From NCBI RefSeq assembly GCF_900107215.1, contig NZ_FNPD01000004.1, forward strand, positions 109,184 through 173,183: a stretch of DNA of 64,000 bases, in the 5' to 3' direction. Within the stretch, counting starts at the first letter, position 1, and the number at the start of each line of letters is the position of its first letter. Below, one piece after another: positions 13,634-15,376 of the stretch. The notes beneath the pieces were generated by a model. The model saw only the letters and a list, made by a program, of their open reading frames with translations. It was not told where the DNA came from and made no database searches. The position numbers were made by a program, and so were the translations under genes. Origin of the DNA: Acetomicrobium thermoterrenum DSM 13490 (lineage in GTDB: Bacteria; Synergistota; Synergistia; Synergistales; Acetomicrobiaceae).

Positions 13634-14161
13634 TTAGTCCTGTTGTTTACAGATAAAACGATAAGCACACTTATAACACCTTCCGTCCCCTTCTTCCAGT
13701 GGGGGAGGAGGAAAATCTTTAGAGAGCACATCTAAAGCTTCATCTGCAATTTGCATCAAATACCCTTTCGTCCTCTTATTCCAGCGTATTTTGAACTTTT
13801 TCCCTCGATATTGCAATAGCCCGTAGGGCACTTTGAAACCTGCCTCTTCCAACAGGAAGCAATAACACAAAAGTTGTAATCTGTGGCTTTCCGTTGGTTC
13901 ATCGTAATTTGAGCTTTTATACTCTATCGGTATGTGCCAGGGGCCCTTCTTTATTACCGCATCGGGCCTACCCGTAAAAATTTGCCCCTTCCACAATTTC
14001 GAATCGATGCTTACGGGAATTTCCCTCATCCACCAAACGTAAATTCCCAATATGCAGATTGCAGCGATTGCAATGCCAGCTATTTCAATATCAGATACAA
14101 ACAAAGCAAGGCCCCTCCAACAGCGATGAGAAAAAAGACAGTCCTCCAGACACTGCTCCAA
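13634..14161 (-). pseudogene. Cas4-like nuclease, C-terminal part (split gene)
   Basis: 175 codons from a TTG, carrying a hydrophobic segment (EIAGIAIAAICILGIYVWWM), then the PD-(D/E)XK core of the Cas4/Dna2/RecB family: FTGRPDAV (metal Asp), PIEYKS (E-x-K), QLLCYCFLLEE (motif III Gln and Tyr), and at the end C-x2-C-x5-C (RCYKCAYRFIC), the three C-terminal ligands of the Cas4 [4Fe-4S] cluster. The fourth cysteine and the motif I histidine are in the overlapping frame 14080-14331. A -1 shift near 14090 (TTG AAA TAG read as TTG AAA ATA) joins the two into one continuous protein with two adjacent membrane segments. The TTG start has no good ribosome site, so I favour a broken or frameshifted single gene over two genes. 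No CRISPR array or other cas gene is nearby. Confidence 0.65.
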
Positions 14162-14331
14162 AAACCTTTAAGCTTTTCCAGGAAGCCAAACCATCTATGG
14201 GCCCTTTTCCCCTTTTGAAGGGCTTTTCCGCCACCGTTGCCCTGGGGGGTAAAACCATGGGCCCTATACCATGCCGCACGGGGGCAATATACGTATTGTG
14301 CGAGTAATGATGCGCTTATTCTATCTTTCAT
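14080..14331 (-). pseudogene. Cas4-like nuclease, N-terminal part (split gene)
   Basis: 83 codons from an ATG. It begins SASLLAQYVYCPRAAWY, the N-terminal Cas4-type segment whose Cys is the first Fe-S ligand, followed by KALQKGKRAHRWF with the motif I histidine, then a hydrophobic run (VFFLIAVGGALLCLYLIL) and a stop. The nuclease residues follow in the overlapping -1 frame (13634-14161). In ordinary Cas4 the region between histidine and the catalytic Asp has no membrane span, so the intact protein would be a membrane-anchored variant. The gene is divergent from the thioesterase at 14405. Confidence 0.65.
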
Positions 14332-14404
14332 GTAAATTTAAAACCCCCTAAAATAAAGAGTATTATTTACCTGTAATCGATGTTATCACAAAGGGGGATT
14401 GAAA

Positions 14405-14821
14405 ATGAGCCTTGTAAAACTGCAGGGAACGCCATCGTGTTTTGTATGTGGAAACGAAAATGATAATCCTCGAAGTCTCGGACTGAACATCTTTTGGGAC
14501 AATGAATCAAGGTACACATTTATAAGTTTCATTCCCGACGAGAGCTGGTGTGGTTACGAAGGAATGGTTCACGGCGGACTACTTGCTGCTATTATAGACG
14601 ATGCCATGGCATGGTCAATAAAAGCGTCGGATGATGACATCTATGTTACTGGAAAACTAACCATATCCTTTAGAAAGGAGGTGCGCTGCGGGAAAAAATA
14701 CGTGGCCCACGGTTTCCTCGAAAGAAAGGAGGGCAGAAGAGCTTATACTTCTGCCGTTATCAAGGATGAAGAAGGAAACACTTGCGTCGAAGGCGGGGCC
14801 ATTTTCATACGTGTAAAATGA
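14405..14821 (+). CDS. PaaI-family hotdog thioesterase
   Basis: About 138 residues. The hotdog core shows EGMVHGGLLAAIIDDAMAW, where the HGG and the Asp at the helix are the PaaI/4HBT-type active site, and a middle strand VTGKLTISFRKEV. An N-terminal CFVCGNEN pair of cysteines is typical of a PaaI subgroup. These enzymes hydrolyse acyl-CoA thioesters; the acyl group is unknown. The ATG is preceded by AGGGGGATTGAAA; a TTG two codons earlier is less likely. First of four plus-strand genes. Confidence 0.8.
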   Translation: MSLVKLQGTPSCFVCGNENDNPRSLGLNIFWDNESRYTFISFIPDESWCGYEGMVHGGLLAAIIDDAMAWSIKASDDDIYVTGKLTISFRKEVRCGKKYVAHGFLERKEGRRAYTSAVIKDEEGNTCVEGGAIFIRVK

Positions 14822-14860
14822 AAAAGGGAATAAAAATTTCATTTTAAAGGGGGGCCTGCG

Positions 14861-15376
14861 TTGGAGATTAAAATAACGACCAAGACAGGAGACCAAGGCA
14901 TGACTAGCCTTGGCAATGGAGAAAGAGTTCCCAAGGATCATCCAAGGGTTGAGTTATATGGAACCTTAGATGAATGTCAGGCACACATCGGAATGGCGCG
15001 TGCTACTTGCAAAAACGAAGAAATAAAGGATACGCTGTTGCGATTGGAAAGGGATTTAAGCTGCTTTATGGGTTACTTGGCTTTATTTCCCGACTTAAGC
15101 GCTCCCGACGTCATTTGGCTGGAAGAAATTATTTCAAAGGTATTACGTTCTATTTCGAAGGACAAACCGAGCTTTGTATTGCCCGGCGAATCCATATCGG
15201 AAGCAGCTCTCCATATAGCACGCACAGTGGCCAGAAGAGCAGAAAGGATAGCCGTAAAGTTATTGAGAAACAAAGAAATAAAGGAAAACGCCTATGTTTT
15301 TATCAATAGGCTATCTGATGCGTTATATGCCTTAGCATTGTGGACGAACAACGATTTACAAAATAGGGAGAATTAA
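14861..15376 (+). CDS. cob(I)alamin adenosyltransferase, PduO type
   Basis: A 171-residue ATP:co(I)rrinoid adenosyltransferase. The signature TKTGDQGMTSLGNGERVPKD at the N-terminus binds ATP, and VELYGTLDECQAHIG, ISEAALHIARTVARRAER and VFINRLSDALYALALW match the helical-bundle fold of the family. It makes adenosylcobalamin for B12-dependent enzymes. TTG start, 8 bases after AAAGGGGGG. Some family members act as B12 chaperones for a mutase, but no B12-dependent enzyme is in the window. Confidence 0.88.
   Translation: MEIKITTKTGDQGMTSLGNGERVPKDHPRVELYGTLDECQAHIGMARATCKNEEIKDTLLRLERDLSCFMGYLALFPDLSAPDVIWLEEIISKVLRSISKDKPSFVLPGESISEAALHIARTVARRAERIAVKLLRNKEIKENAYVFINRLSDALYALALWTNNDLQNREN

Follow-up and report, generated by a model that had tools for sequence, protein, structure and literature searches.

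Two overlapping genes in the window (the whole 64,000-nucleotide stretch of DNA that was analysed) are a real, conserved, two-gene membrane variant of Cas4. The two genes, A and B, are probably translationally coupled and encode one membrane-anchored Cas4-family nuclease, whose halves would form a single enzyme. Frame B is -1 relative to ORF A and is open from about 14167 down to 13634, and both frames lie where a preliminary description of this DNA had placed them. The features, in window coordinates, are:

14080..14331, minus strand: ORF A, 83 aa, the N-terminal part of Cas4 with a C-terminal transmembrane helix (ORF and profile matches)
13634..14104, minus strand: ORF B, 156 aa from a predicted TTG, a transmembrane helix and the remaining Cas4 nuclease (profile matches and AlphaFold model)
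14102..14104, minus strand: predicted TTG start codon of ORF B, 25 nt ahead of the end of the A stop codon (predicted from sequence)
14112..14118, minus strand: Shine-Dalgarno-like GGAGGGG within ORF A, 7 nt ahead of the B TTG (duplex energy -9.8 kcal/mol)
14086..14142, minus strand: TM1, hydrophobic segment, A residues 64-82 (mean KD 2.58, 19-residue window)
14027..14083, minus strand: TM2, hydrophobic segment, B residues 8-26 (mean KD 2.25, 19-residue window)
14080..14104, minus strand: overlap of the A and B genes, 25 nt from the B start to the end of the A stop, without a conserved slippery heptamer

The two halves exhibited complementary matches to Cas4 models. A and B cover positions 3-38 and 53-159 of Pfam PF01930, positions 1-40 and 68-179 of TIGR00372, and positions 2-39 and 62-168 of the PADLOC model PDLC01250, respectively, and these matches bear out the Cas4-type nuclease call made in the preliminary description. 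B passes the curated cut-off of PF01930 (55.9 bits, against a cut-off of 22.7 bits), A alone falls below it at 16.1 bits, and both halves stay under the 65-bit equivalog cut-off of TIGR00372, with 56.6 and 26.8 bits. When compared profile to profile with an alignment of further Synergistota proteins of the Cas4 family, led by the ordinary CRISPR Cas4 of the window genome (G000), both A (E 5e-5) and B (E 9e-14) gave a match.

The full set of Cas4 residues that had been claimed across the two frames was found, with every named residue in place. ORF A carries Cys16 of the Fe-S module and the motif I His45 (sequence stretches ISASLLAQYVYCPRAAWYRAHG and RAHRW), and ORF B carries Asp48, Glu61-x-Lys63, Gln77, Tyr81, Cys143, Cys146 and Cys152 (motif stretches GRPDAV, IPIEYKS, QLLCYC and RCYKCAYRFIC). 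The four cysteines of the putative Fe-S module are thus present, one N-terminal in A and three C-terminal in B. The PD-(D/E)xK set (His on A; Asp, ExK and QxxxY on B) is kept in 7/7 genomes that have the pair, and ORF A has 27 invariant residues among relatives that are 42-96% identical. The pair resembles members of the Cas4 family (PF01930/TIGR00372; SSO0001, Pcal_0546, I-C Cas4) in the order of its motifs (Cys, His, Asp, ExK, QxxxY, CxxC-x5-C), in the predicted fold of B, and in that A and B both match the same profiles. It differs from them in being encoded by two genes, whereas a Cas4 family member has the whole nuclease on a single polypeptide, and in the two transmembrane helices that separate motif I from the catalytic Asp.

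These two helices had been noticed earlier as membrane spans and are seen here as the hydrophobic windows at residues 64-82 of A and 8-26 of B. Mean KD19 values were 1.53-2.58 for A and 2.02-2.37 for B. Basic residues flank TM1 on the N-terminal side of the helix; TM2 has acidic residues ahead of it and Arg behind. On sequence grounds, the charge pattern at both helices fits cytoplasmic domains, with the basic residues cytoplasmic under the topology proposed below. With one hydrophobic helix per half and a positive-inside pattern, the predicted location of both halves is integral to the membrane. The AlphaFold model of B (pLDDT 84) has a long N-terminal helix (residues 5-25) followed by a Cas4 core, and its eight best matches in the PDB (all those at E <= 0.001) are Cas4, from the Cas4-Cas1 fusion 7mi4, the I-C Cas4 8d3l, SSO0001 (4ic1) and Pcal_0546 (4r5q). 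The model of A is of low confidence (pLDDT 66) and consists of one long helix, residues 35-82, that runs through the membrane segment.

The split arrangement recurs in seven genomes of two families (six Acetomicrobium and G019), with B always -1 to A. Copies in G061 (listed as the same species as the window genome), G002 and G003 are 94-99% identical to that of the window, those in G004 and G001 are 60-68% identical, and that in G019, from the other family, is about 42% identical. Searches of 188 Synergistota genomes with A only and with B only returned the same seven genomes, leaving uncounted the B matches at E above 1e-10, which are larger or different Cas4-like proteins, and one further A match (G005, E 0.0097). 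An intact single ORF of about 230 residues had been proposed as something to look for in Synergistota orthologues, but no such form of the pair was present in the 188 genomes. Each remaining Cas4 gene listed for the phylum forms a single ORF of its own, and the A and B searches did not link these genes to the pair. Distribution was assessed within Synergistota, and the single-sequence contig scan reaches only close relatives; no relatives of the pair were found in IMG/VR or among the phages searched, and the plasmid search gave one match only, to an ordinary cas gene.

Purifying selection acts on both halves. Among close species dN/dS was 0.03-0.19 for B and 0.12-0.42 for A, and in distant comparisons dS was large or saturated, yet 38-72% of protein residues were retained. 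The catalytic residues and the four cysteines are conserved in relatives at 38-45% identity, so the loss of catalytic residues that would have spoken against the earlier reading was not seen in any relative. A chance origin of the arrangement is excluded by its recurrence in seven genomes of two families.

Two of the copies have features that complicate their recognition. The G001 copy is split over two contigs (L037 and L012) whose ends overlap inside ORF B, and automatic annotation could therefore miss it. In G019, a 246-aa single ORF was considered as an intact form of the gene and rejected, as its N-terminal portion is out of frame: the true N-terminus sits in the other frame and ends at its own stop, and the early part of the 246-aa frame is chance openness in GC-rich DNA.

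How is B translated? A frame-B NTG codon is present in every copy, as TTG 25 nt (Acetomicrobium) or GTG 22 nt (G019) before the end of the A stop, and in every copy it is preceded by a GGAGG- or GGGGGG-like ribosome-binding site. Across copies, the Shine-Dalgarno duplex energies for B were -9.3 to -13.2 kcal/mol; ten gene starts of the window gave -3.5 to -11.3 kcal/mol, and the B site is as strong as those of neighbouring genes. As a control for chance, the amino acids of A were held fixed, its codons were redrawn, and the occurrence of a Shine-Dalgarno and NTG of equal quality was scored. The probability of such a site was 0.23, 0.28, 0.11 and 0.24 in the four lineages, giving a joint value of about 0.002, which ignores shared ancestry, and each lineage alone is weak. 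Since such sites arise in 11-28% of draws, the support for the B start is moderate rather than decisive, and it gains its weight from the presence of the site in every lineage together with the lack of a frameshift signal. Conservation of frame B, judged by eye, is alike upstream and downstream of the TTG and so does not fix the start, and G004 and G001 also carry an ATG overlapping the A stop, which may be an alternative start for B. Overall, an NTG with a Shine-Dalgarno near the upstream stop is retained in the orthologues, which is the predicted signature of a coupled overlapping pair. The preliminary description had viewed the two frames as a single gene to be joined, and had named orthologues in the form of two genes with conserved starts as evidence against its reading; in all lineages the orthologues do have that form, overlapping but separate and with equivalent start sites.

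The alternative is a single polypeptide of about 230 residues, a Cas4 with a transmembrane hairpin, made by programmed -1 frameshifting within the overlap, possibly beside a short A product. The -1 relation in all seven genomes, the complementary halves and a lysine AAA codon ahead of the A stop in all Acetomicrobium copies would suit this explanation, but we consider it unlikely, given the sequences at the junction. These differ between the window (TTGAAATAG) and divergent relatives (TTGAAATGA, TCAAAATAA, ACGCGCTAG), and the overlaps of the compared lineages have no strict A-frame X XXY YYZ heptamer in common. The T6 (U6) run is limited to the window clade and missing in G004, G001 and G019; the G019 junction reads ACG CGC TAG, and a GGGGGGC heptamer was found in G019 alone. 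RNA downstream of the A stop was folded in three relatives and gave inconsistent z values against shuffles (-0.8, 0.1 and -3.1). The Shine-Dalgarno of the window lies about 29 nt ahead of the stop, which suits initiation and is beyond the spacing of 10-14 nt in a stimulator of the dnaX type. Thus, a slippery heptamer conserved together with a stimulator was not found, and recoding is disfavoured, as neither the heptamer nor downstream RNA structure is conserved. The -1 join near 14090 that had earlier been thought necessary is not supported; an NTG with a strong Shine-Dalgarno is present instead, and no slippery site is shared. The z value of -3.1 comes from G004 (L006 1552-1646), where RNA past the A stop folds better than shuffles; the other two do not.

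Two further explanations were weighed. There could be two genes as above, with B, or both halves, having lost or changed the nuclease activity and acting, for instance, as a membrane protein that carries an Fe-S cluster or binds DNA but does not cut it. No neighbour (thioesterase, cobalamin adenosyltransferase, aminotransferase, IlvD) suggests DNA metabolism, which speaks for this reading, but the conservation of all catalytic residues and of the four cysteines at 38-45% identity makes it improbable, somewhat more so than frameshifting. The option of a pseudogene or sequence error raised in the preliminary description, here taken as a recently disrupted solo cas4 gene or a faulty assembly, has hardly any probability left. 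The halves do resemble one gene with an indel, and the occurrence of solo Cas4 among bacteria is known to be patchy (PMC5704561). However, seven assemblies from two families share the architecture, dN/dS is low both before and after the junction, and this conservation and selection on both halves rules such an origin out. A point that counts against two coupled genes is that the pair is carried by two families only.

For the coupled two-gene pair, we infer the start of B and the topology, pairing, cluster, activity and substrate of the products as follows. Ribosomes would finish A and stop, and the GGAGG Shine-Dalgarno inside A, with the TTG or GTG, would launch B in the -1 frame. A would be N-in with one membrane helix; B would start outside, cross the membrane once by its helix and place its nuclease core in the cytoplasm. 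TM1 and TM2 would pair at the position of the short link that joins motif I to the catalytic Asp in an ordinary Cas4, and the split would fall in a would-be hairpin loop outside the membrane, where a break should cost the cytoplasmic fold nothing. A 4Cys Fe-S cluster (one Cys from A, three from B) would hold the halves together, and the active site would be shared, with His from A and Asp, Glu and Lys from B. Like Cas4, the assembled pair is expected to be a metal-dependent exonuclease (5' to 3' in Sso0001), and it would work at the membrane's inner face, on DNA that is coming in or is located there. Candidate roles are to defend the cell against incoming DNA, to provide the CRISPR adaptation machinery with DNA ends, or to take part in repair.

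AddB and Dna2 are single chains with helicase parts and are not known to have membrane helices. The pair is nevertheless like these 'iron staple' nucleases in that one N-terminal and three C-terminal cysteines join distant parts of the chain (PMC3466216), an arrangement that would suit a split enzyme. In Cas4/AddB, the four cysteines bind a cluster that staples the N- and C-terminal parts, and Cys-to-Ala changes in Sso0001 gave insoluble protein (PMC3466216). Because the cluster staples the ends of the chain, a stable nuclease is not expected from either half by itself, and A and B would assemble via the two membrane helices and the shared cluster. We lean towards a naturally split nuclease whose subunits enter the membrane separately and become active only on meeting, with a composite cluster and active site, as a Cas4-type enzyme at the cell membrane.

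Full-text literature searches found no split or membrane-anchored Cas4, and neither a split nor a membrane-bound solo-Cas4 is mentioned in the principal survey of this protein family (Hudaiberdiev et al. 2017, PMC5704561). That survey reported solo-Cas4 in Thermoanaerobacterales and Chloroflexi, and found solo-Cas4 and CRISPR-Cas4 in one genome to be extremely rare in bacteria. The pair is like solo-Cas4 in lying outside any cas locus and in being apparently vertical within Acetomicrobium, but unlike it in that co-residence with CRISPR-Cas4 holds in 6/7 genomes. If the model is correct, the pair is a DNA nuclease that occurs in nature as two parts sharing an Fe-S cluster, divided at a position where a permanent membrane hairpin would tolerate the cut, and organisms with CRISPR-Cas4 have a further Cas4-type activity at the membrane, the point of arrival of incoming DNA. 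The pair could then also serve, ready-made by nature, as the starting design for split nucleases that depend on assembly.

On the same contig, about 74 kb from the pair, the genome encodes its own CRISPR-Cas4. It is an ordinary Cas4 (C4:48720-49196) between cas3 and cas1 of a type I-B locus; this type I-B-like CRISPR locus (C4:43000-56000, L034) contains cas6, a cas8b-like gene, cas7, cas5, cas3, cas4, cas1 and cas2, with the cas genes named by eye and by the Cas4 search, and about 3.2 kb past cas2 read as N. The ordinary Cas4 belongs to the same family as the pair, but is encoded by one ORF of 176-181 aa, lacks the hydrophobic insertion and stands beside cas genes. Of the seven genomes with the pair, six had a CRISPR-type Cas4 match; since all but one of the seven belong to one genus, the co-residence is only suggestive.

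No cas gene was found in the examined window neighbourhood of the pair, in agreement with the preliminary description, nor beside the pair in G004 or G019, and the neighbouring genes in these three genomes give no hint of a target. Thioesterase and cobalamin adenosyltransferase genes are divergent from the pair in the window and in G019, with a GntR gene beyond them. This two-gene neighbourhood is widespread in the order in the absence of the pair: at 15/15 further thioesterase loci, in genomes outside the genus, the pair was absent within 1.5 kb. In G004, a TypA/BipA-like GTPase gene (L035 6086-7969) is directly upstream of the pair and replaces the thioesterase. Aminotransferase and IlvD genes lie close behind the pair, downstream, in the window and in G004, but not in G019. 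The thioesterase and cobalamin adenosyltransferase genes (window 14399-15376) stay close to each other in much of the order, for no obvious reason. The cobalamin adenosyltransferase gene (window 14861) apparently starts with TTG behind GGGGGG, which fits the use of TTG in this genome.
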